From Euryarchaeota archaeon (lineage in GTDB: Archaea; Thermoplasmatota; SW-10-69-26; JACQPN01), in contig JACQPN010000022.1 in assembly GCA_016207515.1 (NCBI GenBank), positions 1-64,000 on the forward strand: a DNA stretch of 64,000 nucleotides, written 5' to 3'. The notes under the pieces are model-generated. The model made no database searches, was not told where the DNA came from, and saw only the letters and a list, made by a program, of their open reading frames with translations. Shown in pieces: positions 8,317 through 24,527 of this stretch; the first letter of the stretch is position 1, and every line of letters starts with the position of its first letter. The translations under genes were made by a program, and so were the position numbers.

Positions 8317-8529
8317 GTGACAGACCGTGTCCAGTTCCGCGAGGATGCAGAGACGGTGGCCTTCGTCGAAGGCCTTGGCATCAACCCGAACGAGCTCGCG
8401 CGCGATCTTTTCGAGGCGGAGGTCCGCCGATTGAAAGCGAACGCGTGGCTCGAAGGCGTGCGCAAGTTGAAGGTCCGCCTCGGGGGAAACGCCGCCGATA
8501 TCGTCCGTGAGGACCGCGATGCCCGGTGA
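8317..8529 (+). CDS. vapB: VapB-type antitoxin (candidate)
   Basis: About 70 aa from a GTG at 8317; a TTG at 8311 is also in frame. It is a small charged protein with a short N-terminal part (VQFREDAETVAFVEGL) and a helical, acidic-basic C-terminus, the usual layout of an antitoxin that wraps a PIN toxin. No clear AbrB or ribbon-helix-helix signature was confirmed. Identification rests mainly on its 11-nt overlap with the PIN-domain gene and its leaderless promoter, which is the gene order of vapBC modules. It is expected to bind VapC and repress its own promoter. Confidence 0.7.
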   Translation: MTDRVQFREDAETVAFVEGLGINPNELARDLFEAEVRRLKANAWLEGVRKLKVRLGGNAADIVREDRDAR

Positions 8530-8959
8530 CCCGGCGTCTGTCGTCGTGGATTCGAGCGCGCTCATCGATTCCGTCGATTCGGAGAAACCGGGCCTCGACG
8601 AGGCGTTCGCGTTGATCGCCGCGGAGCACGAGCTCTTGGCCCCGGTGCTCTTGGCGTCCGAGTGCGGGAATGTGGTGCATCGGAAGCGCGCGGCCAGGTT
8701 CGGCCGGGACGCGATGGAACGAGCGGGGGCGCTGGAACTGCTGCTTGGCCAAGTGACGCTTGTCCTTCTCGACGCCGAAGACCGACGGCGCGCGGGATCG
8801 CTCGTCGAAGAAGCCGGCGTCACATACTACGACGCCGAGTTCTTGGCCCTCGCCGACGCCCGCGGCGCAGCACTCCTGTCGCAGGATTCGCGGCTCCGCG
8901 ACGCGGCGCGAAAGATCCTGGGACCAGAGCGCGTTTTGGATGTCCGTGGACGAGTGTAG
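8519..8959 (+). CDS. vapC: VapC-type PIN-domain ribonuclease toxin
   Basis: A 146-aa PIN domain expected to cleave RNA when released from its antitoxin. The acidic active-site positions are visible: D in VVVDSSALID (about residue 11), E in LASECGNVV (about 48), D in GVTYYDAEFLALA (about 109) and D in LLSQDSRLRDAA (about 126). This is the full quartet, so the enzyme should be active. The ATG at 8519 overlaps the antitoxin stop, giving translational coupling; a GTG four codons earlier is the alternative. The target RNA cannot be deduced. Confidence 0.9.
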   Translation: MPGDPASVVVDSSALIDSVDSEKPGLDEAFALIAAEHELLAPVLLASECGNVVHRKRAARFGRDAMERAGALELLLGQVTLVLLDAEDRRRAGSLVEEAGVTYYDAEFLALADARGAALLSQDSRLRDAARKILGPERVLDVRGRV

Positions 8960-9150: not shown

Positions 9151-10269
9151 ATGGCGACTTCTGAATTCGCCCCTTACAGGATCACCAAGGAGACGGTCCG
9201 CCGTCCCCGCCGCGACAGGTTCGCCCCACACTACGAAGTGGACCAGGAAATCCACGACGCGCTCAGGAACATCGAGCGCAACGACCAGGAACTCCGACGC
9301 TTCGGGCTCGACGACGTCGAATCGCGAAGGCTTTGGCGCCAAGCCATAGTGCGAAACGCGTTCGGGACCGCTAGCATCGAGGGAAACCCGCTCACCCTCG
9401 AGGACGTCGAGAGCCTGCTCGTCGCCTCGCCACGCCCCGCGGAGATCACGGAGCCCGACGAGCGGGAGATCTTGAACAACGCGGCGATGATGCAACGCCT
9501 ACCCACTCTCAAGGTCCCGCGTTCCTTGCATGAAGTCTCCGCGCTACACGCGGAGCTCTGCAAAGGTGTCATGGCGGACGCCGGGGAATTCAAGAACCAG
9601 CGTAATTTCATCGGCCGCCGCCAGGACCGTAGCGTGATCTACGTCCCGAGCGAGCCCGCGCGCGTCGGACCCGAACTCCAAAACGCCCTCGATTGGCTCC
9701 ACGACGCATCGGAGCACCCGCTGGTCCGCGTGATCATCTTCTTCCACGAGTACCAGGCGATCCACCCCTTCAGGGACGGCAACGGAAGGAGCGGGCGGCT
9801 TCTTTCGACGATCGCCACGTACCACTTCGGGTATCCCGGTATCCGTTACGCCCTTGTCGACTACTCGTTCAACGCCGATCGCGACGGTTATTACGGGGCG
9901 CTCGCAGCGACTCAAAAGAGCGCCTGGGACTACACACCGTGGCTACGCTACATGACCCGTGTCCTCGACACGACGTTTCGCGAAGCCCTCGACCGGTTCC
10001 TGTTCAGCGGCGACCTTCCAAAGGGCCTCAACAATCGCCAGATCCGCGTCGCAGAGTGGTTTGCGGGCGCGTCGAAGGGCCACGAAGACCGCCTCGTGAA
10101 ATTCAATGACGTCCATCAAGCGTTTCCCGACACGCCTCGGCGCACGCTGCAGCTCGACCTCGCCACCCTCGCGGAAGCCGGCGTGATAGAAAAGAGGGGC
10201 GAACGGAAGGGCACGACCTACCGCTTTGAAAAGCGGCCGCGTGGAGCGAAGAAGGAGGGGTCTGCCTAG
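9151..10269 (+). CDS. fic: Fic-domain AMPylase-type protein with C-terminal winged helix
   Basis: A 372-aa Fic protein. The active-site motif HPFRDGNGRSGR (residues 205-216) is complete, so it should transfer AMP or another nucleotide moiety to a hydroxyl of a target protein. An N-terminal auto-inhibitory motif TASIEGN (residues 73-79) fits class II Fic enzymes, whose Glu blocks ATP binding until relieved. Residues about 300-360 (VKFNDVHQAFPDTPRRTLQ, LATLAEAGVIEKRGERKGTTYRF) form a winged-helix domain, so it may bind the five repeats in its own promoter. Its stop codon overlaps the first array gene as TAGTG, so Fic heads the membrane-protein array transcript. The target protein is unknown. 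Confidence 0.93.
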   Translation: MATSEFAPYRITKETVRRPRRDRFAPHYEVDQEIHDALRNIERNDQELRRFGLDDVESRRLWRQAIVRNAFGTASIEGNPLTLEDVESLLVASPRPAEITEPDEREILNNAAMMQRLPTLKVPRSLHEVSALHAELCKGVMADAGEFKNQRNFIGRRQDRSVIYVPSEPARVGPELQNALDWLHDASEHPLVRVIIFFHEYQAIHPFRDGNGRSGRLLSTIATYHFGYPGIRYALVDYSFNADRDGYYGALAATQKSAWDYTPWLRYMTRVLDTTFREALDRFLFSGDLPKGLNNRQIRVAEWFAGASKGHEDRLVKFNDVHQAFPDTPRRTLQLDLATLAEAGVIEKRGERKGTTYRFEKRPRGAKKEGSA

Positions 10270-10670
10270 TGGCCCTCAACCTCGCGCTCCCCGCCCTCAT
10301 CAACGCCGCGAGCGGCGCCCTTCTAGTGCTCCCCGGGCTTTTCGTCGCGAGCCGGACCAAGGGAGGCCGTGTGAACCTTGCGTCCGGCGTGTCCGCGATA
10401 GCGCCGGTGTCGCGGCTTGCCGACCGCATCGCGGGGAAGGCCGTGCCAGCTGCGGGGGCGCAGCCGCATGCGGCGAGTAACCAGCCAGCGTCGGAGCGCC
10501 AGATTTCCTACCGGCACGCCGTAGAACTGGCGTTACGGGACCGTCGGCTCTCGCGCGAGGAGGAGCCGCGGCTCTTTCAACTCGCCCATCACCTCAGTAT
10601 CTCGCCCGCGCGGGCCGTCGAGATCCAGGATGCCGTCGAGGCCGGAGTCTCACCAGGAGGCGATTCGTGA
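10269..10670 (+). CDS. Array member 1: truncated paralog, one TM segment plus C-terminal helical domain
   Basis: A 133-aa protein starting at a GTG that overlaps the fic stop. It has one hydrophobic N-terminal segment (residues 5-27), then jumps to the part of the family just after the last membrane helix (SAIAPVSRLADRIAGKAVP) and the C-terminal domain (YRHAVELALRDRRLSREEEPRL-like, residues 80-130). It is closest to the C-terminus of array member 2, next to it. Relative to full members it lacks the multi-helix N-terminal domain and the WTIKQST linker. It may be a remnant of a deletion, or a deliberate small partner retaining only the cytoplasmic module. Its end overlaps member 2 by four bases. 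Confidence 0.75.
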   Translation: MALNLALPALINAASGALLVLPGLFVASRTKGGRVNLASGVSAIAPVSRLADRIAGKAVPAAGAQPHAASNQPASERQISYRHAVELALRDRRLSREEEPRLFQLAHHLSISPARAVEIQDAVEAGVSPGGDS

Positions 10671-11968
10671 TGCGATTTGATACGGATCTTCCCGACATCC
10701 TGAACGCGCTCGGCGCGACCCTCGTCTTGGCGCTTGGCGTCTGGATCGCCCTCCACAAGCCGCGTTCCCGGGCGAGCGCCGCGCTCGCCGCGTTCACCAT
10801 CGGGTTCGGCGCCTTCGTCATCCCGAACTACGCGCTGGCCGATCTCTCACATGGGGAGGAGGCCGCGCACTCTGCCTTCCGGTCCCTGGCCGAAGCGCTT
10901 GCCTTCGTGAGTCTCGTCGCGCTCCTGCGTGTCTTTCCGCGGCCGCTGACCCGCGCCGACCGCCCAGGGATCGCCGCCGCGTGCTTCGTCTTCGCGGTGG
11001 GGTCTGCCGCGAGCCTCGCGGCCCGTTTGATGAGGCCGGGGGGTTGGCAACCCGCAGCCTACGTCCAGGACAACGCCCTGTACTTCGCCATCAACGCCGC
11101 GGACTACGTCGCCAACATTTTCCTCTTCGCCGCGCTCCCGGCGGTCGCCGCCCTCCTCACGCTGCGCTACCGAGGCCTGAAGGACCCGAACCCCCGCACG
11201 CAGGCGGCGCTCATGGCCGCCGCGTTGCTTCTATACGTAGGCTTCATCGCGGGCGCGGGCGGTTCGGAAGGCAGGGACCCCATCCACGACCCCCTTGACC
11301 TCATGGCGAACGCCGGCTTCGCCCTGGCCTGCCTCGTGGCCGGCATTGCCTGGCTGCACGCGACCACGTGGAGCGACAAGTCCGCACGCGCCCGCAACCT
11401 CGCGCTCCTCTCATTCGGCATGCCCCTCGTTGGCCTGCTCTACGCGACGACCGAGAAGGGCTTCGGAGGATACGGGGTCATTCGCACCGTTTTCGTTCTC
11501 TTCCTCGCTTACGCGATCCTGCGAGGGCAACTCCTCGGCCTCGACGTGAAGATCCGCTTCGCCATCAGCAAGTCCACCCTCGCGGCCGTCTTCATCGCGG
11601 TGTTCTTCGTCGCAAGCGAAGCGGCGCAGCAGTTCTTCGGCGAAGCGTTCCAATCGAGCTACGTGGGAATCCTGGCGGCGGGTGCCCTCGTGTTCGCCGT
11701 AGCGCCGTTGTCTCGCATTGCGGACCGCATCGCGGAGAAGGCGGTCCCCCTCGCGACCGAGAGCAAGGGCGTGGCCGCGTCGGATCCCACACGTCGCGAA
11801 GACGCCTACCTCAACGCCGTCCGCCTCGCCCTACGCGACCGGAGACTGACGCGCGACGAGGAATCCCAACTCCACCGCCTGGCGGAAGAGCTCGGCATCG
11901 GGGCGGGGCGCGCCCACGAACTACTCGTCCAAGCGGAGAGCGAGGAGAGCGGCAGGGGGGCGGGCTAG
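10667..11968 (+). CDS. Array member 2: polytopic membrane protein
   Basis: A 433-aa protein with about nine N-terminal hydrophobic segments, longer than the other members, followed by the family core: an amphipathic linker (LDVKIRFAISKSTLAAVFIA) entering a membrane helix, a second helix (YVGILAAGALVFAVAPL) and the post-membrane motif SRIADRIAEKAVP. The C-terminal 65 residues (YLNAVRLALRDRRLTRDEES, then LHRLAEELGIGAGRAHELL) form the helical domain shared by all members. No kinase, cyclase or transporter motif was seen. Start GTG 10667 overlaps the stop of member 1. This member and member 1 form the most divergent branch of the array. Function unknown; a membrane sensor or receptor is the working idea. 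Confidence 0.85.
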   Translation: MMRFDTDLPDILNALGATLVLALGVWIALHKPRSRASAALAAFTIGFGAFVIPNYALADLSHGEEAAHSAFRSLAEALAFVSLVALLRVFPRPLTRADRPGIAAACFVFAVGSAASLAARLMRPGGWQPAAYVQDNALYFAINAADYVANIFLFAALPAVAALLTLRYRGLKDPNPRTQAALMAAALLLYVGFIAGAGGSEGRDPIHDPLDLMANAGFALACLVAGIAWLHATTWSDKSARARNLALLSFGMPLVGLLYATTEKGFGGYGVIRTVFVLFLAYAILRGQLLGLDVKIRFAISKSTLAAVFIAVFFVASEAAQQFFGEAFQSSYVGILAAGALVFAVAPLSRIADRIAEKAVPLATESKGVAASDPTRREDAYLNAVRLALRDRRLTRDEESQLHRLAEELGIGAGRAHELLVQAESEESGRGAG

Positions 11969-13126
11969 ATGGCGTTCGTCTGGAACGACGTCGGGGCCTT
12001 CGCCTCCGGTGTAGCGATCATCATGTGGCCGCTGGCCGCGCTCATACTTTTCCGCCGGCCCGACCGCGCGCAGAACAGGCTCTTGGCAGTAGCCATCGTG
12101 TTCGAAAGCATTGCGCTCGCGGGTGGAGCGGGGCTTCTTTTCCTCACGGACGATCCGCGCACGGCCTACGCGTGGCAGCGGCTCAACACTTTCGCCCTGC
12201 CCGCGTTCAGCGGCGTCTATCTGCTCTTTCTCGGTACACTTCCCTCTCCCCTCTCGGCGCCGTTCCGTACGCGGCGTGGCAGCGCGGTGGTAGTGCTGGG
12301 GATAGGCGCCGCATGGGCAGCCGCGCTCCTTTGGCCCGCGGCGTTCGTTCCGGGAGTGCAGCGCGTCTCGTACGCGACGTGGGATGGTGTGTCGGGTCCC
12401 TATCAGCCGGTCCTCACGAACATGATCCTCGCGGCGTACACGTATGGTTTCGTCGTGTCCTTGGACGCCTGGCGAAGGGCTAGCGCAGGAACGCTTCAGA
12501 AAACGCAGATGGGGCTTTTCCTTCTTGCATTCGGCGTCCGGGATTTCTTCGGTGCCTACGCCTTCGGTTATCGCCTCGTGAACAGTGCTCTCGGCACACA
12601 GCTCCCGTCGCTAAACCAACTTGTGGGGGTCCCGAACTACGTCCAATTCCCCGCATACATCCTGCTCTTCCTTCTCCTCGTCTCGTACGCGATGCTCAAA
12701 GTACAGCTCTTCGACGTGGATCTCCGCGTGAAATGGACCATCCGCCAGTCCACCGTCGCGGCCGCCTTCGTCGCGGTCTTCTTCGTGGTGAGCCAACTCG
12801 CCCAGACGGTCCTTCAATCAAGCCTCGGGCCGATTGCGGGGGTGCTCGCGGCAGGTGCTCTCGTCTTCGTCCTCGCTCCCCTCAACCGTCTCGCCCAGCG
12901 CGTGTCCGACGCCGCGATGCCGAACGTGAAAGAGACGGAAGGTTACAAGACCGTGAGAAAACGCGAGGTCTATCGCGCTGCGTTTCTGGAGGCCGCGGCC
13001 GACGGAGAGCTCACTGAAAAGGACAGGAACGTCTTGGCGACGCTTGCGGACCAGTTGGGATTGTCGAACATGGATGCGAGAGAGGTGGAGAAGGAAGCGG
13101 CGGCGAGGTCAATGGAGGTGACATGA
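11969..13126 (+). CDS. Array member 3: 7TM-plus-2TM membrane protein
   Basis: A 385-aa protein starting directly after the stop of member 2. The N-terminus (MAFVWND) matches the conserved start of members 4-7. Seven hydrophobic segments lie at about 9-29, 37-58, 70-90, 104-124, 148-168, 180-205 and 228-250, a layout like the 7TM sensor modules attached to some histidine kinases. Then come the signature linker FDVDLRVKWTIRQSTVAAAF, two more helices, and the C-terminal domain (YKTVRKREVYRAAF, DGELTEKDRNVLATLADQL). That domain resembles TerB-like helical modules in its DGxxTxxE pattern; this is an impression to be tested. No output enzyme is attached. Confidence 0.88.
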   Translation: MAFVWNDVGAFASGVAIIMWPLAALILFRRPDRAQNRLLAVAIVFESIALAGGAGLLFLTDDPRTAYAWQRLNTFALPAFSGVYLLFLGTLPSPLSAPFRTRRGSAVVVLGIGAAWAAALLWPAAFVPGVQRVSYATWDGVSGPYQPVLTNMILAAYTYGFVVSLDAWRRASAGTLQKTQMGLFLLAFGVRDFFGAYAFGYRLVNSALGTQLPSLNQLVGVPNYVQFPAYILLFLLLVSYAMLKVQLFDVDLRVKWTIRQSTVAAAFVAVFFVVSQLAQTVLQSSLGPIAGVLAAGALVFVLAPLNRLAQRVSDAAMPNVKETEGYKTVRKREVYRAAFLEAAADGELTEKDRNVLATLADQLGLSNMDAREVEKEAAARSMEVT

Positions 13127-13137
13127 GTGGAGGCCGC

Positions 13138-13482
13138 TCAGGGACCCTTTTTCTCCAAGATCCCTTCCAACTCGCGCACGAGGGTCGGCAACTCTTCCGC
13201 TACGGTACGCCACACGACGTCGAGATCCACCTCGAAGTACGCGTGGATGAGCTTGTCTCGCATTCCGGCGATCTTCCGCCACGGTACGCCCGGCAGGGTA
13301 TTGCGCGTCGGTTCGCCCACATGCTTGGCGGCTTCACCCACGACCTCAAGGAGACGCGTAAGGGACAACGCAAGGGTGCGATCCTCGTCCAGGTCCCCGC
13401 GGCTTCGCCCACTGGACAGGGCCACCGCCTCACGGGCCGCATCAAGGACGTCAAGAAGACGGTCGCGCTCACGCCTCTCCAT
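13138..13482 (-). CDS. hepT: HepT-like toxin (HEPN RNase) of an MNT/HepT pair
   Basis: A 114-aa all-helical HEPN protein. The motif RDKLIHAY matches the R-x4-H-x-Y active site of HepT RNases, in which the Tyr is also the residue AMPylated by the partner nucleotidyltransferase. The ATG at 13482 overlaps the MNT gene by 14 bases. It lies on the minus strand inside the plus-strand membrane-protein array, with its stop only 11 bases from the stop of array member 3. The pair therefore either arrived as a unit or was enclosed when the array expanded. The longer frame upstream of this ATG is an out-of-frame copy of the MNT gene. Confidence 0.9.
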   Translation of the reverse strand: MERRERDRLLDVLDAAREAVALSSGRSRGDLDEDRTLALSLTRLLEVVGEAAKHVGEPTRNTLPGVPWRKIAGMRDKLIHAYFEVDLDVVWRTVAEELPTLVRELEGILEKKGP

Positions 13483-13774
13483 ACTGGACCTCGGCCGACG
13501 CCAGCACCTCGTCGCGGAAATGCCTACTGAGATCATTGGGCGTGTGGAGATCGACTTCCCGGACCCCCAAGATCTGGGCGAGTTCGTCCTGGAGGCCGAT
13601 GAGCGCGAAATACCCGGGCACGTGGCCGTCCTCGAACTCGACAAGTACGTCGACGTCGCTCGCCGGTCCGAATTGTTCCGTGAGCACGGACCCGAAGAGG
13701 GAAAGCCGTCGGACGTGGTGCCGGCGGCAGAAATGGCTGACTGCTTGCCTGTCAACGCGAATCCTTGCGGCCAT
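13469..13774 (-). CDS. mntA: MntA-like minimal nucleotidyltransferase antitoxin
   Basis: A 101-aa minimal nucleotidyltransferase. The sequence GSVLTEQFGPASDVDVLVEF contains GS, ten residues, then DVD, exactly the GS-x10-DxD motif of enzymes that AMPylate and neutralise HepT toxins. A third acidic residue is likely in REVDLHT. The first gene of the pair, it starts at ATG 13774, and its product is expected to modify the HepT Tyr. Its promoter would overlap the start region of array member 4 on the other strand (13775-13850), so transcription of the two could interfere. Confidence 0.92.
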   Translation of the reverse strand: MAARIRVDRQAVSHFCRRHHVRRLSLFGSVLTEQFGPASDVDVLVEFEDGHVPGYFALIGLQDELAQILGVREVDLHTPNDLSRHFRDEVLASAEVQYGEA

Positions 13775-13830
13775 GCTCCTCGACGGCGAAACGTCAAACC
13801 ACCTCTTGAGCGCTTCGGAAGGGGCACTCC

Positions 13831-13835
13831 GGAGG
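13831..13835 (+). promoter_or_regulatory. Shine-Dalgarno sequence of array member 4
   Basis: GGAGG nine bases before the ATG at 13844. It contrasts with the other array genes, which rely on stop/start overlap or leaderless starts. Confidence 0.6.
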
Positions 13836-13843
13836 CGACCTGA

Positions 13844-14980
13844 ATGGGCCTCTACTGGAATCCGATAGGCGCCGTCGGGCTCGCCGTCACGGCCACGACG
13901 TGGCTCATCGCCGCGGTCATCTATTTCGCTCGTCCTGGGAGATCGCAGAACCGGCGGCTCGCGACTCTCCTCGCGGTCGAAGGCTTCGGCTGGTCCGGCG
14001 GCGCGGGACTCATCTACGTCGTCGACGATCCGGCTCAAGCCTACGCAGCGCAGGCAATCACGACCGTCGTGCTCGCGGCGATTCCCTTTCTCTATGTGGC
14101 CTTCATCGCGACGCTGGAAACGCCGCTCGTCCGACCATTACGGAATCCGTATGTCTCCTGGGCCCTCTGGGCGGGTGCGATGCTCGCCAGCGCGTTCGTT
14201 CTCGTGAACATGTCACATTTCGTCGCTGGCGTTGCGCCGGTCCCATACTCGAAATGGGAATCCGTGAGCGGTGATTGGGGGGCGTACGGCGTCGTTGGTT
14301 ACGCTTTGGTGGCCACCTCTCTCTTGGGCCTCATCGCGGCGCTTGCCACCTGGCGCGGGGCCGCGCAAGGCTCCGCCACGCGGGCGCGGGCCGCCGCCTA
14401 CGCCGTGGCGTTCGGGATCCGCGACTTCAACTTCGGAATAACGTTCTCCGGAATCCAGGATCTGCTTTTCCCCGAGATCGTCCCAGGTTTCGGTCAGGCG
14501 ATGTTCGAGGTGGTCGCCCTCCTGTCGTTCCTGGTCCTCGGGTACGCAATCGTGAGACACCAGCTTTTCGACGTGGACCTCAAGTTGAAGTGGACGATCA
14601 AACAGTCAACGGTCGCCACCGCCTTCATCGCCGTCTTCTTTGTCGTCAGCGAGGTCGCGCAATCAGTGTTCCAATCAAGTCTGGGTTCAATAGCAGGAAT
14701 CATTGCGGCGGGGGCACTGGTTTTCGCGCTCGCCCCGCTACAACGCGCCGCCGACCGCGTCGCGAGTGCTGCGATGCCAGGCGTCAAGGACACGTCGGAG
14801 TACTTGGCTTACAGGAAGGTGGAGGTGTATCGGGCGACCGTCGAGGAGATACTCGTGGATCGGGCGATCACGGAGAAGGAGCGCTCCATCTTGAATCGTC
14901 TGCGCGATAAGCTGGAACTTGGCGACGACGTGGCGAAAGCCATCGAGCGCGACGCGGCGGCCGCGAAGGGGGCCGCCTAG
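13844..14980 (+). CDS. Array member 4: 7TM-plus-2TM membrane protein
   Basis: A 378-aa paralog of member 3 with the same order: N-terminus MGLYWNPIG, seven hydrophobic segments, linker FDVDLKLKWTIKQSTVATAF, two further helices, then the C-terminal domain (YLAYRKVEVYRATVEEILVD, ITEKERSILNRLRDKLEL). A GGAGG at 13831-13835 suits the ATG at 13844, so this gene restarts translation after the antisense MNT/HepT pair. It is closest to member 5 in the C-terminal domain. Function unknown. Confidence 0.88.
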   Translation: MGLYWNPIGAVGLAVTATTWLIAAVIYFARPGRSQNRRLATLLAVEGFGWSGGAGLIYVVDDPAQAYAAQAITTVVLAAIPFLYVAFIATLETPLVRPLRNPYVSWALWAGAMLASAFVLVNMSHFVAGVAPVPYSKWESVSGDWGAYGVVGYALVATSLLGLIAALATWRGAAQGSATRARAAAYAVAFGIRDFNFGITFSGIQDLLFPEIVPGFGQAMFEVVALLSFLVLGYAIVRHQLFDVDLKLKWTIKQSTVATAFIAVFFVVSEVAQSVFQSSLGSIAGIIAAGALVFALAPLQRAADRVASAAMPGVKDTSEYLAYRKVEVYRATVEEILVDRAITEKERSILNRLRDKLELGDDVAKAIERDAAAAKGAA

Positions 14981-16123
14981 ATTGGGCTCGTCTGGAACTC
15001 CTTGGGTGTTCTTGGCCTCGTGGCCGTGGCGTTCTTACTCGTGATGGCGGCGGTGGTCTACAAGGCCGGTCCACGGCGCGGGGTCAACCGTGTACTGGCC
15101 TTGACGCTCTTCGTGGAGGCCATCCTGATATCCGCGTGCGATGACGGTATAAGCATCTTCCTCACCGATCCTCGCGATTATTACGGGAGCCAAGTCATCC
15201 ATTCCATCACTCATCTTGCGTTGCCGTTCCTCTACCTGGTATTCATCGGCGCCGCCATCGACACGCGCCTCGTGCGTCCGCTTCGGCACCCGGCCGCCCC
15301 GGTGATCATCGTTTCACTTCTTTTCGTCGCCCAGGTCCTCAGGTTCGTGTACCGAGACCAAGTCATCGTGGGCCTCGATCGCCCGTGGTTTGCCACTGGG
15401 GGCTTCGTCCCGGGGCCGGGCTTCGCCCTGATACTGCAGTTCTCCGCCATCGTTTCCCTGTTCGGCCTCGTTGTGACAGTCGATGCCTGGCGGAGAGCGG
15501 CCTCCGAAGCGGCAAAGCGGCGAGCCCGGGCGTACGCCATCGCGTTCGCTGCGCGAGACCTCTATTGGGCCGTTCTTCTCCTCCTCGTCCTTCCGTTTGG
15601 GGATCCGTATCACGACGTGTTCTGGGGGATCGTCTTTACGCAGTCGATGCCCTTGGCGAGCATAGTGTTCGTCTCGCTTCTCGGTTACGGGATATTGAAG
15701 ACCCAACTCTTCGAGATAGACCTCAAGATCAAGTGGACCATCCGGAGAGGGACCGTCGTCGGGGCTTTCCTCTTGGTCTTCTTGACGGTCGCGGAGGTCG
15801 TGCAGATCCTGGTGTCCGACGCGTTCGGGATCGCGGCGGGGCTCGCTGCCGTGGGGTCGCTGTTCTTCGTCCGCCAAAGGTTACAAAAGGCCGCTGATGG
15901 TCTGGCCGACACGGTGATGCCTTCGGTGGGGGAGAATGAGGAGTACCCGACGTCGCGCAAAGCGGATGTGTATCGAGCGACCGTCGAAGAGATACTAGGG
16001 GATCGGGCGGTCACCGAGAAGGAACGCTCCATCCTGAACCGGCTTCGCGAGAAACTCGAACTCGGGGATGAAACGGCGGCCGCCATCGAACGCGAGGCAC
16101 TCTCTGCAAGGGGCGTGGCTTGA
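14981..16123 (+). CDS. Array member 5: 7TM-plus-2TM membrane protein with probable ATT start
   Basis: A paralog of about 380 aa. The frame opens right after an in-frame TAG (14978-14980), and its first codons read ATT-GGG-CTC-GTC-TGG-AAC, giving the residues GLVWN that open members 6 and 7. No ATG, GTG or TTG precedes this, so the conserved N-terminus can be made only if translation starts at ATT 14981; a TTG at 15002 would cut seven residues at the first membrane helix. The rest is standard: seven segments, linker FEIDLKIKWTIRRGTVVGAF, two helices and the C-terminal YPTSRKADVYRATVEEILGD, VTEKERSILNRLREKLEL. Member 4 ends immediately before it. Confidence 0.82.
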   Translation: MGLVWNSLGVLGLVAVAFLLVMAAVVYKAGPRRGVNRVLALTLFVEAILISACDDGISIFLTDPRDYYGSQVIHSITHLALPFLYLVFIGAAIDTRLVRPLRHPAAPVIIVSLLFVAQVLRFVYRDQVIVGLDRPWFATGGFVPGPGFALILQFSAIVSLFGLVVTVDAWRRAASEAAKRRARAYAIAFAARDLYWAVLLLLVLPFGDPYHDVFWGIVFTQSMPLASIVFVSLLGYGILKTQLFEIDLKIKWTIRRGTVVGAFLLVFLTVAEVVQILVSDAFGIAAGLAAVGSLFFVRQRLQKAADGLADTVMPSVGENEEYPTSRKADVYRATVEEILGDRAVTEKERSILNRLREKLELGDETAAAIEREALSARGVA

Positions 16124-17272
16124 GTGGGTCTCGTCTGGGAGCCGCTTGGTATCCCCGGGATCGTCGTAGGAGTGCTAGACGTCTTTCTCGCGTGGCTGGT
16201 TTTCACGTCCCGGCCCGATCGGAAGCAGAACCGGCTCTTGGCCCTGCTCTTCTTCCTTAGTGTTTTCATCATGGGTGGCAGGTACGGCCTGCGCCTCCTC
16301 TTCGACGACCCAGCATCGGCGTTCGCCGTCTACATGGTCGGGGAGATGGCAATCCCGCTTTGGGGATTGACGTACGTCGCCTTCCTTTCTACGCTTGATT
16401 CTCCCATCTCCAGGTTCCTGCGCCGCAAGAGCGTCCAAGTCGGTGTGGCGTTCCTCTTCGCGGCGAGGGGGATTTATGGCGTGGCGCTCACCGGCCCTGC
16501 GAACCGCTCGGTATCGCCCCTCGCCCATTTTCGCGGCTGGACGGTCGGCGGAGGGGCGCTCTTGCTCGGTGACTACGATCAGTATCTTTTCTACATCCTG
16601 TGGATCCTTGGCATCGTGACCGCGTTTTCGGCATTGATGACGGCCCGTCCGGGGCCGCACAAAGACCAGATGCGTTGGTACACCGTGGCATTCGTCGCCC
16701 AGGACGCCGTGCTTTTCTCTTGGCTCGCGTATCTCGATTTCCTGGCCCCGGCGACGTTCACGGCCTCCGACGAAGCCATCCTATTCCTCGGGCCGCCGTT
16801 GGCAGGGCTGCTCCTCGACGTCTTCCTCGCGTACGGGATGCTCCGGACGCAACTCTTCGATGTCGACGTCAGGATAAAGTGGACGATCAAGCAATCGACT
16901 GTGGCCGCGGCATTCATCGCCGTCTTCTTCATCGCCAGCGAGGCCGCCCAGCAGTTCTTCGCGTCCAGTCTCGGCTCCTATGCGGGGATAGTGGCCGCTG
17001 GGTTACTCGTCTTCGCCATCGCGCCCCTCCAAAGGGCCGCCGACAAAGTAGCGGACGCCGCCATGCCGCGCGTGAACGACACCTCCGAGTACTTGTCGTT
17101 CCGAAAACTCGAAGTCTACCGCGCTGCGCTCGAAGGGGCCGTGGCGGACGGCGTTGTCACGGAGCGTGAACGCGAGATACTCTCGCGCTTGAGGGACAAG
17201 CTCGGTATCACCGACCGGGATGCGGCGGCCATGGAGTCCGACGTGATGGCCGCGGCGAGGGGGGCCGCGTAG
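16124..17272 (+). CDS. Array member 6: 7TM-plus-2TM membrane protein
   Basis: A 382-aa paralog starting with GTG immediately after the stop of member 5. N-terminus GLVWEPLG, seven hydrophobic segments, linker FDVDVRIKWTIKQSTVAAAF, two helices (second: YAGIVAAGLLVFAIAPL), then DKVADAAMP and the C-terminal domain (YLSFRKLEVYRAALEGAVAD, VTEREREILSRLRDKLGI). A stretch of 25 residues across the linker is identical in protein to member 7 yet differs at about 11 synonymous positions, showing purifying selection rather than recent copying. Function unknown. Confidence 0.88.
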   Translation: MGLVWEPLGIPGIVVGVLDVFLAWLVFTSRPDRKQNRLLALLFFLSVFIMGGRYGLRLLFDDPASAFAVYMVGEMAIPLWGLTYVAFLSTLDSPISRFLRRKSVQVGVAFLFAARGIYGVALTGPANRSVSPLAHFRGWTVGGGALLLGDYDQYLFYILWILGIVTAFSALMTARPGPHKDQMRWYTVAFVAQDAVLFSWLAYLDFLAPATFTASDEAILFLGPPLAGLLLDVFLAYGMLRTQLFDVDVRIKWTIKQSTVAAAFIAVFFIASEAAQQFFASSLGSYAGIVAAGLLVFAIAPLQRAADKVADAAMPRVNDTSEYLSFRKLEVYRAALEGAVADGVVTEREREILSRLRDKLGITDRDAAAMESDVMAAARGAA

Positions 17273-18420
17273 ATGGGCCTCGTCTGGAATGATCATGCGA
17301 TCCCCTCCATTGTCGCGTGGCTTCTCGCGTGGGGCCTTGCCGCCGTCATCTATTCCGCGGCGCCGCGAAGGCTACAGAACCCACTATTGGCTTTGATGCT
17401 CTTCACGGACGGCGCAGCCATCACGGCCGGGACGGGCATTATCTACCTCCTCGACGACCCGGCCCAAGTCTACGGGATGCAGATGGTGAACGTGACCTGC
17501 GGGATCTTTGGTCTGGCACTCTACCCGCTTTTCCTGTCCACGTTGGACACCGCCATCGTCCGGCCGCTAAAGCACCGGCTCGTGCGAGGAACGACTCTTG
17601 TGGCCGTGGCGGCCCTCCAGACCTACCGTTTCATCAATCCCGACTACTTCGTCGTCGGCGTCCAACGCGTGAGCTACGCGCCGTACGACGCCATCTTGAA
17701 TCCCGACTACACAAACACCATCTTCTGGGTGGTCGCCGCGTTGCTCCTGTTTGGCGCGCTCGCCGCGTTCGCCGCCTACCGCGCCGCGCCACGGGCAAGC
17801 GCCGAGCGAGCGCGCGCCCAAGCGTTCGCCACCGCATTCGTCACCAGGGACGTCTTGAGCGTGACCCTTTTCATGGCCTTCGTGCTCACGCAAGCGGCCG
17901 CGCAAGAGAACCCATTCACGAGCGTCCTAAACTACATCTCCGCCTTCCCCCTGATCCTCTTCGTGCTTCTCGTGTCCTATGGGATCGTGCGGACCCACCT
18001 GTTCGACGTCGACCTCAAGATCAAGTGGACCATCAAACAATCCACGGTCGCCGCCGCCTTCATCGCAGTCTTCTTCATCGCGAGCGAAGCGGCCCAGGCG
18101 TTCTTCGCCGGAAGCCTCGGCCCGTATGTCGGGATCGTGGCGGCGGGCGCCCTCGTCTTCGCCCTCGCTCCACTGCAGCGCGCAGCGGATCGCGTCGCGA
18201 ACGCCGCGATGCCCCAGTGAATCCGACGGCCGAGTACCTGACCTACAAGAAGCTCGAGGTCTACCGTGCGACCATCGAGGGTGCGCTCGAGGACGGCGAA
18301 ATAACTGAACGTGAGCGTACCATGCTCATGCGGCTGCGCGACAAGCTAGGAATTGCCGAGGCGGACGCGCGGGCATTGGAGCTGGAACTGGTCGGCAAGG
18401 CGAGCCGGGCCACCACCTGA
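17273..18420 (+). pseudogene. Array member 7: paralog with a one-base frameshift before its C-terminal domain
   Basis: The membrane part runs from ATG 17273 to a TGA at 18218-18220. Immediately afterwards the missing C-terminal domain continues in another frame (VNPTAEYLTYKKLEVYRA, then ITERERTMLMRLRDKLGI) to a TGA at 18418-18420. Aligning with member 6 (AAMPRVNDTSEYL) shows that one base is missing between 18211 and 18217. The downstream part is still well conserved, so the lesion is recent, a sequencing error, or a site of recoding. If real, the product would be a receptor-like membrane domain without the cytoplasmic module, the mirror image of member 1. There is no homopolymer longer than CCCC at the site. 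Confidence 0.8.
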
Positions 18421-18435
18421 CGACCCGGCCAGCAA

Positions 18436-18444
18436 CATTTATCT
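18436..18444 (+). promoter_or_regulatory. TATA box of array member 8
   Basis: CATTTATCT is centred 27 nt before the GTG at 18467, suggesting a leaderless transcript independent of members 1-7. Confidence 0.55.
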
Positions 18445-18466
18445 CGGGTCGGACCCGTCAGTTGCC

Positions 18467-19795
18467 GTGGCCTTTCCGCTTCCACCGCTCGATGCCGGCT
18501 CCGTGCTCTACCTTCTCGCCGGGGCTGGAATGCTCTTCACGGCGCTCGTCCTCCTGTACTTCGACTTCAGGAGCCGCGTGAACCAGACATTCGCGCTCTT
18601 CCTCACTGTGCGGGGGATAGGGAACGCTCTCAATCCGTGGTTTCTCATACCCGAAACGACGGATCTTGCGGGTCGCCTCCAGCCATACTTCTGGATTGCA
18701 GTGCCCTTCGCCACGGCGCTCTTCTACCTGGCTTTCCGAGCCCGATATGCGGGCCGTCCAGCAGGGCGCATGCTTCCCGTTCTGATCGTCGTCACGGCTC
18801 TTGTCGCCGAGGGGCTCTATGCCTCCGACCATTCCCTCTTCGCCGCGTCCACGTCCACTGCTCTCGTGCCGGGGGACCCAGGCCCCCTGTTCGTGCTGTT
18901 CTTCCTTGTGCCGACGAGTTACGCGGCGGTCGCCGCCCTACTTTCGCGCGAGCTCCGGGGCGGGAAGCCAGGGCCGCGGTCCCAGTCGCTCCTCATCGTC
19001 GCCGCCGGTTTTGCACTGGACGCGGCGTTCCTCGTTGGATTCATCCCCACGGGCTACTTGTTGACCCTCTTCGATCCGACCGTCCAAGCGCTCCTCGATC
19101 TCCCGGCGGCGACAAGCCCCATCGGGATCGCCGGGCTCGTGACCATAGTCCTCACCGCCGTTTTCCTGGCCATCGCCTGGCGTAACGTAGGATCAAACCC
19201 TGAGGCGACGAGCAGGGCCGCGGTCTCCCGCTACGGTGTGGCGATGACGGCTGCGCTTGCTTCTGGCATCTTCACGAGCGCAGTCTTGGCACTGCGCTTC
19301 GATCCGGCTGGGTTTTGGGTGGGCGGAGTCGACGCCTTCTGGACCCTCGCCCTCCCCGTTCTCGTCGGGTATGCCCTTCTCAAGCACCAGCTCTTCGACA
19401 TCGACGTGCGCGCCAAGTGGACCATCAAACGTGGGACACTCGCCGCAATGTTCCTCGCGGTCTTCTTCGTCGTCGCCCAGCTTGCCCAGAATTTCCTCTC
19501 CGATGAATATGGGCTAGTCGTCGGCGGGGTCGCGGCAGGGCTAATGCTCTTCGCCCTGTCGCCGCTACAACGCGTCGCCGAGGACGTCGCGAACGCCGCC
19601 ATGCCAGGCGTCAAATCCTTCAACGAGATGAGCCACCCCGAGAGGCTCGCAGCGTACCTACGCTCCGCGAAGATCGCCTGGGCCGACGGGGCCATCGACA
19701 GGAGCGAACGGGCGATGCTCGATGGCCTGCGCGAGACGCTCGGCCTTTCCACCGATGAGGCGACGCGCCTTGAATCGGAGGCGTCGCGGGCCTAG
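18467..19795 (+). CDS. Array member 8: larger polytopic membrane protein, second subfamily
   Basis: A 442-aa protein; the GTG at 18467 was chosen from the TATA box spacing, because earlier residues in the frame copy the end of member 7 in another frame. The N-terminus (VLYLLAGAGMLFTALVLLYF) differs from members 3-7 and resembles member 9. About eight hydrophobic segments precede the linker FDIDVRAKWTIKRGTLAAMF, then two helices around the loop LSDEYGLVVGGVAAG and the C-terminal domain (RLAAYLRSAKIAWADGAIDR, SERAMLDGLRETLGL). The DGAIDRSERAML pattern is the clearest TerB-like version of that domain. Function unknown. Confidence 0.88.
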   Translation: MAFPLPPLDAGSVLYLLAGAGMLFTALVLLYFDFRSRVNQTFALFLTVRGIGNALNPWFLIPETTDLAGRLQPYFWIAVPFATALFYLAFRARYAGRPAGRMLPVLIVVTALVAEGLYASDHSLFAASTSTALVPGDPGPLFVLFFLVPTSYAAVAALLSRELRGGKPGPRSQSLLIVAAGFALDAAFLVGFIPTGYLLTLFDPTVQALLDLPAATSPIGIAGLVTIVLTAVFLAIAWRNVGSNPEATSRAAVSRYGVAMTAALASGIFTSAVLALRFDPAGFWVGGVDAFWTLALPVLVGYALLKHQLFDIDVRAKWTIKRGTLAAMFLAVFFVVAQLAQNFLSDEYGLVVGGVAAGLMLFALSPLQRVAEDVANAAMPGVKSFNEMSHPERLAAYLRSAKIAWADGAIDRSERAMLDGLRETLGLSTDEATRLESEASRA

Positions 19796-19808
19796 GGACA
19801 CACGGTCA

Positions 19809-19820
19809 GGTTTATCTTTT
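19809..19820 (+). promoter_or_regulatory. TATA box of array member 9
   Basis: GGTTTATCTTTT is centred 27 nt before the GTG at 19840, the same spacing as for member 8. Confidence 0.55.
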
Positions 19821-19839
19821 CCGAAGTCGTGGTTCGACC

Positions 19840-21174
19840 GTGGCGTGGCCTCCGCCCCTTACCATCGAGATCGTCCTGAGCATCGTAGCCGGCGGAGGGA
19901 TGGTCGTCCTCGCGCTCGCGCTCCTTTACCTGGATTTCAACAGCCTTCTGAGCCGTGCGTTCGGCGTCTTCCTCCTGGCCCGCGCTTACACGAACCTGAT
20001 GCCGGTCTTTCTCGAGATCGGGCCCGACCTCGCGGGCCGTCTCTACCCGTACGCGGCGATCGTGGTGGCGCCTGCTGCCATATATTTCCTCCTTGTCTAC
20101 CGCGAAAGATACTCGAGCGCCTCTCCTAGGCCAAGGCTCCGCCTCGCGCTCCTCGTCGCCACGTTGGCTCTCCAAGCGGCCTACCTCCTCGACCATTCGC
20201 TCTTCGGCGCCTACACGGTCTCGTCCGACGGGTCGGTCTCGGACATGGCCGGGCCGCTGCGGACGGTGGACGACGCGGCGCCGCTCGCGTATGCCCTCGT
20301 CGCGCTGGTATTGGCGAAGGATTGCGCTGGCAGCCGCACGGGTCCGCGCTCGCAGGCCCTCAAACTCGCTTCCCTGGGTTTCGCCCTCGATGCGACGTTT
20401 CTCATCGTGACCCAGGTCACTGGCCTTCTCTCCCTCGTCGCTGTGCCGCTGCGGCCCGGCGAACAGGTGCCGGGCGTGAACGCGGGCGGGATGTGGGCTA
20501 CCATCGGTCTAGCGATGCGCCTCGCGGGTCTCCTTCCATTGGCGCTTCTTGCCATAGGCCCGCTACGAAAGGCACCCGAGGGCGCCGACCCGCGGCGATG
20601 GTGGGCCCGTTACTCGGTGCTCGTCGCGGCCGCCGCCGGGTCGGCGGTGCTCACGGTCGTAGGTGGCGTCTACGGGTGGTTCGACGCGTTCTTGGGCTAC
20701 CTCATCGTGGACCGCGTCTGGACGGTTCTGTTCCCGCTCTTCATCATGTACGCGCTCGTACGGCACCGTCTATTCGAGGTGGACGTCAAGATAAAGTGGA
20801 CGATCAGCCGCGGCACGATGGCCGCCGCGTTCCTCGCCGTGTTCTTCGTCGTTGCCCAACTCGCCCAGGCGTACTTGACGAGCGAGTATGGGCTGCTCCT
20901 TGGCGGAGTGTCGGCGGGCCTGCTCCTTTTCGTGCTCTCGCCGTTGCAACGGCTTGCCGAGCGCGTCGCGGAGACCGCGATGCCCGGCGTGAAGCCCGCC
21001 TCCGCCATGGACCAGTCGGAGCGGCTCCGGGCCTACCTCGAAAGCGCCCGCGTCGCCTGGGCGGACGGGGTCCTCGACAAAAGTGAGCGCGCGATGCTCG
21101 AACGGTTGAGGGAGACCCTAGGCCTCTCGCTCGAGGACGCGAGCCGCCTCGAACGCGAAGCGGCGGCGGCCTAG
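19840..21174 (+). CDS. Array member 9: larger polytopic membrane protein, second subfamily
   Basis: A 444-aa protein most similar to member 8: N-terminus LSIVAGGGMVVLALALLYLD, about eight hydrophobic segments, linker FEVDVKIKWTISRGTMAAAF, loop LTSEYGLLLGGVSAG, and C-terminal domain RLRAYLESARVAWADGVLDK, SERAMLERLRETLGL. It ends the array; the next gene converges on it after about 100 bases. Members 8 and 9 each have their own leaderless promoter, so they can be expressed separately from the coupled block of members 1-7. Function unknown. Confidence 0.88.
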   Translation: MAWPPPLTIEIVLSIVAGGGMVVLALALLYLDFNSLLSRAFGVFLLARAYTNLMPVFLEIGPDLAGRLYPYAAIVVAPAAIYFLLVYRERYSSASPRPRLRLALLVATLALQAAYLLDHSLFGAYTVSSDGSVSDMAGPLRTVDDAAPLAYALVALVLAKDCAGSRTGPRSQALKLASLGFALDATFLIVTQVTGLLSLVAVPLRPGEQVPGVNAGGMWATIGLAMRLAGLLPLALLAIGPLRKAPEGADPRRWWARYSVLVAAAAGSAVLTVVGGVYGWFDAFLGYLIVDRVWTVLFPLFIMYALVRHRLFEVDVKIKWTISRGTMAAAFLAVFFVVAQLAQAYLTSEYGLLLGGVSAGLLLFVLSPLQRLAERVAETAMPGVKPASAMDQSERLRAYLESARVAWADGVLDKSERAMLERLRETLGLSLEDASRLEREAAAA

Positions 21175-21278: not shown

Positions 21279-23900
21279 CTAGATCCAGCCCACCGGCAGG
21301 TTCGAGCACCACGCGTTCCACGCCATCGTGAGATGGTCGACGGTCGGATTGAACGCCGGGTCGCTGCCTTGCCAATAGCCGCCGTTCCAGCTTCCCGTCA
21401 GGTGCTGCCTGCACTTCGAATCGATCACGAACCACTTGGCCTCGCCTGCGGGACGCGGAAGGGTCGCATTCGTGCCCGTGGCCGCGTTCACCATCTGTTC
21501 TAGTTGAGCCCGGTAGGGGCCTACACCATCGATGAGGCCGAAGACCACGCCGTGCCCCTGGTACATGTGGTTGTACGGGGAGTTGGGCCAAGTGGTGCTT
21601 CCCACGGTAAGGCCGGTGTCCGGGACGACGTTGTGATAGACCAGGTCTCGTAGCTCCGAGCGTGTGAGGACGCCGTCCCCGAGTGCGCACGCTGTGGCCG
21701 CGCTTCCGCACGCGACCGGTGCTCCGGATGCGATCACTCCAGCCCCCTCGGGGCCCGGTGTAGTGTCCTCCAGGAGTTCCCGGGCTTCCTGGAGCACCTG
21801 GGCTATCATGCCTGCCGTCACCGGGGCGGCATTGCTCGTCCCGCTGTGCGTGCCCATGCCCGTCGCCGTGGTGCCGCCGGTACTCGGATAAGAACTGCCG
21901 ATGCTACTCACGTCGACCGGTTTGGTCGAGCCGCTGTACGACTGCTTTGCGCCCGGGTCGACCGCGCCCACTTTCACGATCCAATCCGTCCCCTTCTGGC
22001 TGTTGAGGTAACCGAATTGCGGAGTGATGAAAGCGTTCTCCAATCCATTGCCGGCCGCGAACACCACGAACTTGCCTGCTTCGCTCGCAGTCCGCCACGT
22101 TGCGGGCGCCGGGCCCGTTGCAAGACCGTTTCGGACGGTGCAAGACACCGCGCACGATTCCCAACTGTTGGAGATCACGTCGATCCATGGTTGGCTCGCG
22201 GCCCACGTGACACCGTTGTTGCCAAGGCCCTGTACGAGGACGACGAGGCATTCGGGGCAGGTCCCGTGGATGTTGCCGACGGCGCTCGCCGCGCTACGTG
22301 TCCCGTGGTTGCTGTTCGTCCCCGCAAAACTCGCGCCGTAGCGCACGGCGCCGATGATCTTGGTTCCGGGGAGCCAATGGAGTTTGACGCCCGTTCCCGA
22401 CCCCGTCGACACCTCGAACTCCGCCCACGCCGCCGCATCGGCCGCGAGAAGCGACGCAACATTGGTGTCAGCCGTCTGCGGGATCGATATGTCGATCGCC
22501 TTCGCGCCCGGGTAGCCTGCGATGTACGTCGAAGGGTCGGTCGTGAAATCAAAATCGTTCGTCGCATCCGAGTCGAGGTTCCAAGGGTGCTGGTGCCCCA
22601 CGAAATCGTAGTGGTAGGGCGAGAAACCATCATCCACCACGGCGACGACGGTCACGGGCCGCGGTTCCACCGGGGTGGGGCCGGAGAGGGTCGTGTTGGA
22701 CGCTTGTGCCGATAGGACGCCCTCGTTGCCGCCGGCGTCGAACGCGGACACGGCGTAATAGTAGGTGGTCAAGGCATCGAGTCCCGTGTCGATGAACGCG
22801 GTCGGTGTTGCGATGCCGATTTGCGACAGCGCCTCGGGCGCGGTTCCCCGGTAGACGTTGTACCCGGCGACACCCAAGTCGTCGGACGCCGCGGTCCACA
22901 CGAGGCCGATGCTGTGATCGTCACGGGCGGTGGCGAGAAGGCCGGTCACTTGCCCGGGCGGCGTCGTGTCGATGACGCTCGGGCCGATCGTCAGGGCGGA
23001 GGGGAATCCCGTCGAGTCGTACAGTATCCCATGCACTCCAGCCGAATCCGCGAACCCCGCGTCGATGCGGATCACGAGTTCGTTTCCCTCGGCGGTGAGG
23101 TCGCCGAGATCCACCGTCTGGAGGACGATCCCGCTAGGAGTGATGGCGGGCCCACGCGCCGTTAACGCTCGGGCCTCGACGCCGTCAACGTAGAGATAGA
23201 ATTGCATCGTCGCCCCGCTCGCGGCACTACTTCCCGCCGCGGTGAACCAGAACGTCAAGGACACCGGCGCGGTCGAGAGGTCGAACCCGCCGTCGGGCGT
23301 CCAACGCCAATCAGCGTCGTATTCGCTCGAAGGGGGTGTCCCGTCGGCGGCGAAAGAGTCGTGCGCAACACTTGGCGTCGGCTTCGTGGGAGCCGCCTCG
23401 CTCAAGACGTCGCCGTCGAGGTCCATGTCCACGGGACCAAGGCCTGTGGGCCCGCTTCGAAGGTAGAGCGTTACGTCTCCCGTGCGCACCGGGGCGTCGA
23501 CCATCCGGGCCCGAAGCGAGATGGTGCCGGGGGCCCCCGAGTAGAAAGTTATCTCCGCGGTCGTCGTCCCAACCGGAATCACGCCGGCCTCCCCCGCGAG
23601 GCTTGCATAGGAGCGCAGCGTGGCCGATCCATCCTTGTAAGTCACGTCGATGTCGTCGCCCGGGTGCTCCCCACGCGCCGTGAAAGGAGCCCCGCCGCAC
23701 GAGGCGGGGATCGCGTCGACGAAAAAGTTCTCGCCCGCGAGTTGCACTTCGCCGCCAGTCGCAAGAGTTCCGGCGTGCGTTAGCAGGAGGTCGCAAACGA
23801 CCGGGTAGTCGGCCGCGGCGGGGGTAACCGCGAGCGCCGGAAGGATCAGGAGAGTCGCCACAACGAGAGCTGTCGGGTTCGCACGTCTTGGTTCACACAT
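21279..23900 (-). CDS. Secreted subtilisin-like (S8) serine protease with fibronectin type III domain
   Basis: An 873-aa precursor with a Sec signal (ALVVATLLILPALAVTPAAA, about residues 11-30). Residues 30-320 form a beta-rich N-terminal region with P-domain or lectin-like features. A fibronectin type III domain follows (about 325-415, from PGQVTGLLATARDD). The S8 catalytic triad is then visible: Asp in VVAVVDDGFSPYHYDF, His in NSNHGTRSAASAVGN and Ser in HSGTSNAAPVTAGMIAQ. The ATG at 23900 was chosen because GAGGAGG sits nine bases upstream and the signal peptide then starts at residue 1. No C-terminal PGF-CTERM anchor is present, so it is probably released for extracellular protein degradation. 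It converges on the array. Confidence 0.92.
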   Translation of the reverse strand: MCEPRRANPTALVVATLLILPALAVTPAAADYPVVCDLLLTHAGTLATGGEVQLAGENFFVDAIPASCGGAPFTARGEHPGDDIDVTYKDGSATLRSYASLAGEAGVIPVGTTTAEITFYSGAPGTISLRARMVDAPVRTGDVTLYLRSGPTGLGPVDMDLDGDVLSEAAPTKPTPSVAHDSFAADGTPPSSEYDADWRWTPDGGFDLSTAPVSLTFWFTAAGSSAASGATMQFYLYVDGVEARALTARGPAITPSGIVLQTVDLGDLTAEGNELVIRIDAGFADSAGVHGILYDSTGFPSALTIGPSVIDTTPPGQVTGLLATARDDHSIGLVWTAASDDLGVAGYNVYRGTAPEALSQIGIATPTAFIDTGLDALTTYYYAVSAFDAGGNEGVLSAQASNTTLSGPTPVEPRPVTVVAVVDDGFSPYHYDFVGHQHPWNLDSDATNDFDFTTDPSTYIAGYPGAKAIDISIPQTADTNVASLLAADAAAWAEFEVSTGSGTGVKLHWLPGTKIIGAVRYGASFAGTNSNHGTRSAASAVGNIHGTCPECLVVLVQGLGNNGVTWAASQPWIDVISNSWESCAVSCTVRNGLATGPAPATWRTASEAGKFVVFAAGNGLENAFITPQFGYLNSQKGTDWIVKVGAVDPGAKQSYSGSTKPVDVSSIGSSYPSTGGTTATGMGTHSGTSNAAPVTAGMIAQVLQEARELLEDTTPGPEGAGVIASGAPVACGSAATACALGDGVLTRSELRDLVYHNVVPDTGLTVGSTTWPNSPYNHMYQGHGVVFGLIDGVGPYRAQLEQMVNAATGTNATLPRPAGEAKWFVIDSKCRQHLTGSWNGGYWQGSDPAFNPTVDHLTMAWNAWCSNLPVGWI

Positions 23901-24027
23901 CAGTCCAGCCTCCTCTTGAAAGGACTTGGACACACCACGGGATAGGTCACGATAAGCCTTTCTCCGGTGCAAAGCCGCCATCACATGGCGATACGGTCAG
24001 CGCGGTCCCCGCGACGCGCGACTTGAC

Positions 24028-24525
24028 TTATCGCGTCGGTGGCCTCTGGCGTCGTGCCATCCATCGTCGAAGCAGGCCCTGGTCGTCTTCGCCGACGATG
24101 AACCCTCGACACTTCTTCGCGCCGCAGCGGCAGCGCACGGGTTCGTCGTCGAAGTCGAAGTTGTAGTCGTACGTGATCTCTTCACCGCGCGCAATGTCTT
24201 GCAGCGCGATTATCCAGATGTGGCCGCGGATCACGTCGCTTTCGCAGTTCGGGTCGCAGCTGTGGTTGGCGAAGCGGGCGATGTTCCGGCGCACCGACCC
24301 GTCGATGTCATGCCGGGCGTTGAGTTCGAAAATGTAGTGCCGGCGCCTTTTGGCCTGTTCTTCCTGCCGGCGAGCGCCCTCAGCCTTCGTGACCCTCTCG
24401 CCCACGTACTCGATCACTCGTTCCCCTTTGCCGATCGGCCTCCCGGCCACGAGGCCTCGCCCGTGGATGCCGGATCTCACGAGGCGGACACTCGCACTAG
24501 CGCGGTTCTTCGTCTTCGCCGGCAT
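24028..24525 (-). CDS. SET-domain protein lysine methyltransferase with post-SET cysteines
   Basis: A 165-aa stand-alone SET domain that would transfer a methyl group from S-adenosylmethionine to lysine. The start of SET reads RLVRSGIHGRGLVA, the cofactor/active-site motif is RFANHSCDPNCESD, followed by GEEITYDYNFDFDD with the catalytic Tyr, and a post-SET zinc motif CRCGAKKCRG. This organisation is best known from eukaryotic histone methyltransferases. The target here is unknown; candidates are archaeal chromatin proteins or ribosomal proteins. The ATG at 24525 lies two bases after the upstream stop, so it is co-translated with the membrane-anchored protein before it. The tail after the post-SET motif (RRWMARRQRPPTR) is basic. 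Confidence 0.93.
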   Translation of the reverse strand: MPAKTKNRASASVRLVRSGIHGRGLVAGRPIGKGERVIEYVGERVTKAEGARRQEEQAKRRRHYIFELNARHDIDGSVRRNIARFANHSCDPNCESDVIRGHIWIIALQDIARGEEITYDYNFDFDDEPVRCRCGAKKCRGFIVGEDDQGLLRRWMARRQRPPTR

Positions 24526-24527
24526 CG

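Follow-up and report, generated by a model that had tools for sequence, protein, structure and literature searches.

Nine paralogous genes, here called m1 to m9, follow one another on the plus strand at positions 10269-21174 of the window, the 64-kb stretch of DNA analysed here, which lies on contig C22 of a 2.67-Mb genome in 25 contigs. A sequence-only reading had described a tandem array of nine paralogous membrane proteins at this place, and that description is borne out, with corrections to m1, m7, the helix counts and an insert within the array. The full plan of seven to nine transmembrane (TM) helices, a conserved linker, a two-helix hairpin (2TM) and a three-helix C-terminal domain is found in seven of the nine (m2-m6, m8 and m9). 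The shared linker, the two further helices, the AAMP-like motif and the C-terminal domain named in that reading are all present in these seven; its claim of one architecture for all nine does not extend to m1, which is a remnant, or to m7, whose frame is split. The features are as follows, with scores in bits.

10269..10670, plus strand: m1, remnant of 133 aa with one membrane helix; the module profile matches from position 62 on only
10667..11968, plus strand: m2, long type, about 9+2 helices, TerB-like C-terminus; 197 bits, module profile
11969..13126, plus strand: m3, 7+2 helices, TerB-like C-terminus; 225 bits, 9 hydrophobic segments
13138..13774, minus strand: HepT/MNT nucleotidyltransferase toxin-antitoxin pair between m3 and m4 (HepT about 13138-13482, MNT about 13469-13774)
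13844..14980, plus strand: m4, 7+2 helices, TerB-like C-terminus; 240 bits, HisKA_7TM over cut-off at residues 15-244
14981..16123, plus strand: m5, 7+2 helices, TerB-like C-terminus, probable ATT start; 219 bits, HisKA_7TM 26.0 bits
16124..17272, plus strand: m6, 7+2 helices, TerB-like C-terminus; 232 bits, AlphaFold2 mean pLDDT 82.5
16820..17080, plus strand: linker and two-helix hairpin of m6, where the family is most conserved; 44% median pairwise identity among 22 members of this genome
17273..18220, plus strand: m7 membrane part (7+2 helices), 315 aa, TGA after the hairpin; module positions 1-84 only
18217..18420, plus strand: m7 separate TerB-like domain in the next frame, 67 aa, GTG overlapping the TGA; 58% identical to the m6 C-terminus
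18467..19795, plus strand: m8, long type, about 8+2 helices, TerB-like C-terminus, start set at the GTG after TTTATC; 225 bits
19840..21174, plus strand: m9, long type, about 9+2 helices, TerB-like C-terminus; 222 bits, TerB over cut-off

As had been claimed, m2, m3, m5, m6 and m7 start on the stop codon of the preceding gene, m2 through a GTGA overlap and the others through the junctions TAG/ATG (m3), TAG/ATT (m5), TGA/GTG (m6) and TAG/ATG (m7). The start of m4 also abuts a TGA, though its upstream neighbour is now the toxin-antitoxin insert. A start of m5 at TTG 15002 was rejected because the frame opens with ATT 14981 directly on the m4 stop, and the opening IGLVWN... resembles the starts of m6 and m7. 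Both m8 and m9 are separated by a gap from the preceding gene, and about 25 bases ahead of each start lies a TTTATC box; since this hexamer is rare in the window (7 occurrences on the plus strand of 64 kb), the two genes may be under their own promoters.

The toxin-antitoxin pair is not a member of the receptor family. Its Pfam matches are to HepT-like (9.4e-21) and NTP_transf_2 (2.2e-10) domains; both starts were set at the ATG preceding each domain. A candidate target-site duplication around the insert (11 of 15 bases alike) was discarded because five window positions match equally well, and no second DNA copy of the insert was found; the one exception was 90 bases on contig C12, at 71%. Upstream of the array, a Fic-domain gene (9151-10269) overlaps the start of m1 by one base and is itself preceded closely by a PIN-domain gene (8507-8959). 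Downstream lie a large subtilase gene on the opposite strand (21279-23984) and a gene for a SET-domain protein (24028-24684). Besides one tRNA, no RNA features were found in the window.

In the m1 remnant, the first helix leads directly into the end of the hairpin, followed by the C-terminal domain; the remaining 7TM part and the linker are missing. The frame of m7 breaks at the very boundary of the hairpin and the C-terminal domain: the first part ends ATGCCCCAGTGA, its TGA directly following 'AAMPQ', and the C-terminal domain runs one frame over from GTG 18217 to 18420, the GTGA stop-start overlap lying beside a CCCC run. Judged from the DNA, this frame change may be a genuine split of the gene, the result of inactivation, or a sequencing error at the C run.

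Anatomy and conservation of the family

About seven helices precede the linker in m3-m7 and eight to nine in m2, m8 and m9. By hydropathy the totals are 9 in m3, m5 and m6, 8 in m4 and m7 at the chosen threshold, and 10-11 in m2, m8 and m9. The AlphaFold2 model of m6 has seven membrane helices, a short beta hairpin separating the fourth from the fifth, and then the two long helices of the hairpin and three C-terminal helices; confidence is low in the linker and where the TerB domain joins. The model of a bacterial homologue (pLDDT 85) has the same order of helices.

The genome holds about 24 copies of the family (24 matches, E down to 1e-76 with self excluded), a resemblance that by these E-values is more than chance. 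Among 22 members from this genome, the median identity is 17% in the sensor (7TM) part, 44% in the linker and 2TM, and 32% in TerB, so the linker and 2TM block is the real core of the family. In this block dN is 0.06-0.53 and dS ranges from 0.35 to saturation; since the protein is conserved in most pairs while synonymous sites are near saturation, the block, on these rates, is under purifying selection. Its dN/dS is well below 1, a value near 1 being what the sequence-only reading had named as counting against its proposal; over the 7TM part the ratio was left aside because synonymous sites there are near-saturated. The earlier remark that m6 and m7 derive from an old duplication under selection agrees with a block that is 83% identical in protein at a pS of 0.64.

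The block of m2 is near-identical to those of three paralogues on contig C2, with a nucleotide identity of 0.77-0.93 vs about 0.4-0.65 outside it. Among these four genes the dS of the block is 0.35-0.94, and its edges against the divergent flanks are sharp (window 10667-11968, L009:7101-11282). This likeness at the DNA level fits local gene conversion.

Relation to known families

Most members have no Pfam match at all, and profile searches matched no array member to a transporter family. Setting the array against 7TM histidine-kinase sensor and TerB profiles, as the sequence-only reading had suggested, brought m4 and m9 each just over a Pfam cut-off. For HisKA_7TM, m4 scored 28.8 bits vs a cut-off of 28.6 and m5 26.0, below it, with nearly all other members unmatched; no HisKA or HATPase domain was found by Pfam in any member. 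HisKA_7TM (PF16927) is the 7TM sensor region of histidine kinases, reported for numerous haloarchaeal kinases (PMC5847659). While m4 aligns with it over the whole 7TM region, here the 7TM part is followed by the linker, the 2TM hairpin and a TerB-like domain, and the attached kinase, where there is any, is Hanks-type.

For TerB, m9 scored 24.5 vs a cut-off of 24.4, and m8 (20.2), m6 (19.0) and m3 (14.8) all fell below. TerB is named after tellurite resistance. A profile of the C-terminal domain matched the TerB-like structure 2ou3 (COG3793; E 0.0011) and Tic110 (4bm5; E 4.6e-5) in the PDB. In contrast to TerB proper (PF05099), the array domain covers about the last half of the model, which corresponds to one three-helix unit, and it is carried by a 7TM receptor body. 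The HisKA_7TM match of the 7TM part, over the cut-off in m4, and the TerB-like C-terminus together support the earlier proposal of a receptor-like family with a small C-terminal output module.

Foldseek with the m6 model returned 23 PDB matches at E up to 1e-3, all of them GPCRs, the nearest being CaSR (1.7e-4), mGlu and CCK1R (target-normalised TM 0.54). The TM-scores against GPCRs are moderate, 0.42-0.44 when normalised by the query and about 0.5 by the target. GPCRs also dominate the top matches to the m6 model in a viral library (BFVD), and the model of the bacterial homologue gave mostly GPCR matches, but at E 0.04 and worse, which is not significant. Unlike GPCRs, to which they have no sequence match, the array proteins carry two extra helices and TerB. 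We take this predicted likeness as a lead on shape, not homology. One family member from genome G006 (L042:1213-2757) matches the Pfam family WLS-like_TM (Wntless) below threshold, at E 0.0011.

Relatives joined to a protein kinase

The earlier statement that no kinase is attached holds for the array, where Pfam finds no Pkinase domain in any member and no kinase gene lies within it. It does not hold for the family, since proteins with the same body and a Hanks-type kinase occur in the same genome and in relatives. At least seven proteins from four archaeal genomes have the order 7TM-linker-2TM-TerB and then a Hanks-type Ser/Thr kinase: L014:5180-7312 in the genome of the array (G000), L039, L113 and L114 (G003), two at L120 (G001), and L145 (G076), whose body is of the short type of m3-m7 with an LVWN start. 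Their kinase domains match Pfam Pkinase at E 1e-40 to 4e-49. HRDxKxxN is kept in all of them and the glycine loop and DFG in most (L113 has DFS, L145 DLG); in L014, L039, L114 and L120 the Pkinase domain has the K, HRD and DFG motifs on one chain. These fused paralogues resemble Hanks-type receptor Ser/Thr kinases in joining a membrane body to a kinase with catalytic motifs, and differ from them in a polytopic body (7-9 TM plus the 2TM hairpin) and a TerB-like domain before the kinase.

Of the body, at least eight further kinases, among them ones from these genomes, retain the TerB-like domain alone, directly ahead of the kinase; in two from G043 it directly follows. Five of the seven fusions in the tree form one clade, so there may have been few fusion events rather than many. 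Other long open frames (e.g. 1767 aa in G004) were judged to be chance open frames in GC-rich DNA and not counted as fusions. A histidine kinase as partner in cis was rejected for the genome of the array, as neither the linker-2TM nor the TerB profile matched any of the 11 HATPase-type stretches examined there.

Full-length Hanks kinases accompany the expanded receptors, with 2-13 per genome in the order of the host, 9 in G076 and 3 in G213; in 14 genomes sampled from other classes (G007-G020), kinase-like matches are weak and short where there are any. Several genomes, including those of family f17 and G062, have kinase-less module proteins and only weak, short kinase-like matches. Hence a Hanks kinase cannot be the partner everywhere, and the TerB-like tail, by its occurrence in these genomes, is compatible with a kinase without being tied to one. 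TerB-like three-helix units also recur elsewhere in Thermoplasmatota (L023-L027, L035, L152), fused to other proteins or placed after Hanks kinases.

Distribution in archaea and bacteria

The module profile matches 97 of 390 sampled genomes of the phylum at E 1e-6, some by TerB only, with counts limited to ten candidates per genome. Several further arrays of intact copies are present in the host genome and its relatives. A single-protein query against the genome contigs found no relative; a narrower alignment then found bacterial homologues. The family is not lineage-specific, as the sequence-only reading had supposed: full-length homologues occur across Thermoplasmatota and in bins of Pseudomonadota, Gemmatimonadota, Planctomycetota and Actinomycetota. 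The bacterial ones, about 50-57% identical in the module, come from Gammaproteobacteria and related bins, Gemmatimonadota, one Phycisphaerae and one Actinomycetes bin; all are from metagenome bins, so that single cases could be mis-binned.

Eighteen bacterial homologues form one supported clade, and the bacterial rows group with archaeal rows from G076 in a midpoint-rooted tree of few columns whose bootstrap is not settled. This grouping suggests that the family was transferred between domains, more likely from archaea. No convincing conserved gene neighbourhood was seen around the bacterial homologues, all of which are single orphan genes; a Hanks kinase adjoins the homologue in 2 of 21 loci (L077:10517-13426, L089:4655-7507).

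Discussion

Starting from the observed architecture, homology, fusions, distribution and, for the most part, catalytic motifs, we lean on balance towards the array members being kinase-less receptors or co-receptors of a 7TM receptor-kinase family, probably acting in trans. A fast-diverging sensor of 7TM (or 9TM) would sit in the membrane, and the conserved linker and two-helix hairpin would relay its state to a TerB-like three-helix domain in the cytosol. In the subset of the family with a Hanks-type kinase directly after TerB, the body would serve as the sensing half of a receptor kinase. Members of the array would work in trans, as co-receptors that share the linker, 2TM and TerB surfaces with receptor kinases or, alternatively, as receptors with a separate binding partner for their TerB domain. 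We infer sensing itself, and with it a ligand, the orientation in the membrane and the coupling in trans; a sensor role is argued by the HisKA_7TM match and by the low identity of the sensor part compared with the transmission block, and the kinase attached to the same tail in relatives suggests what that tail talks to.

A somewhat unlikely reading is that TerB is the only output, directed to cytosolic or DNA-binding partners with TerB domains, the kinases being one of several attached outputs. Proteins of the same phylum in which TerB-like repeats are fused to winged-helix-type (L023, L027), AsnC-type HTH (L035) or TM/zinc-ribbon (L024, L025) parts are consistent with it, as are the receptors of f17 and G062 that have no full-length Hanks kinase beside them, and the split of m7 could free TerB as a 67-aa protein; however, the Hanks kinase is the only added catalytic domain among the full-body fusions found. 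That these proteins with their TerB-like tail do not signal at all, and serve instead as membrane scaffolds, as transporters or in envelope stress, seems improbable to us. While no ligand or phenotype is known for the family, most members lack a Pfam match and TerB owes its name to tellurite, transporter families went unmatched, the 7TM part matches a sensor family and the same body is fused to protein kinases. The remnant m1, the split m7 and the toxin-antitoxin pair inside the array could point to duplicates mostly decaying by drift after a growth in copy number; with seven of nine members intact, the dN/dS of the linker and 2TM block well below 1 and other intact arrays in this genome and in relatives, this is very improbable.

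An extension of the receptor and co-receptor reading, which we consider unlikely as a whole, is a large combinatorial receptor system in Thermoplasmatota in which GPCR-fold 7TM receptors would feed eukaryote-type Ser/Thr kinases, in cis for some and, for the many paralogues that lack a kinase, in trans through common 2TM and TerB surfaces, and recombination would homogenise the transmission block while the sensors diverge.

To our knowledge, little is known of archaeal membrane sensing beyond two-component systems, and we found no paper in the open-licence literature that describes the 7TM-linker-2TM-TerB architecture. The family is one of receptors with a 7TM sensor and a TerB output, with receptor-kinase relatives, assembled from known parts. 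The fusions offer a testable output for an otherwise anonymous family with up to two dozen genes per genome, and the family appears to have crossed between archaea and bacteria. Should the GPCR-like fold prove true, prokaryotes would have a further 7TM receptor family, one to which eukaryote-type kinases are directly attached, which would bear on the origin of such signalling.
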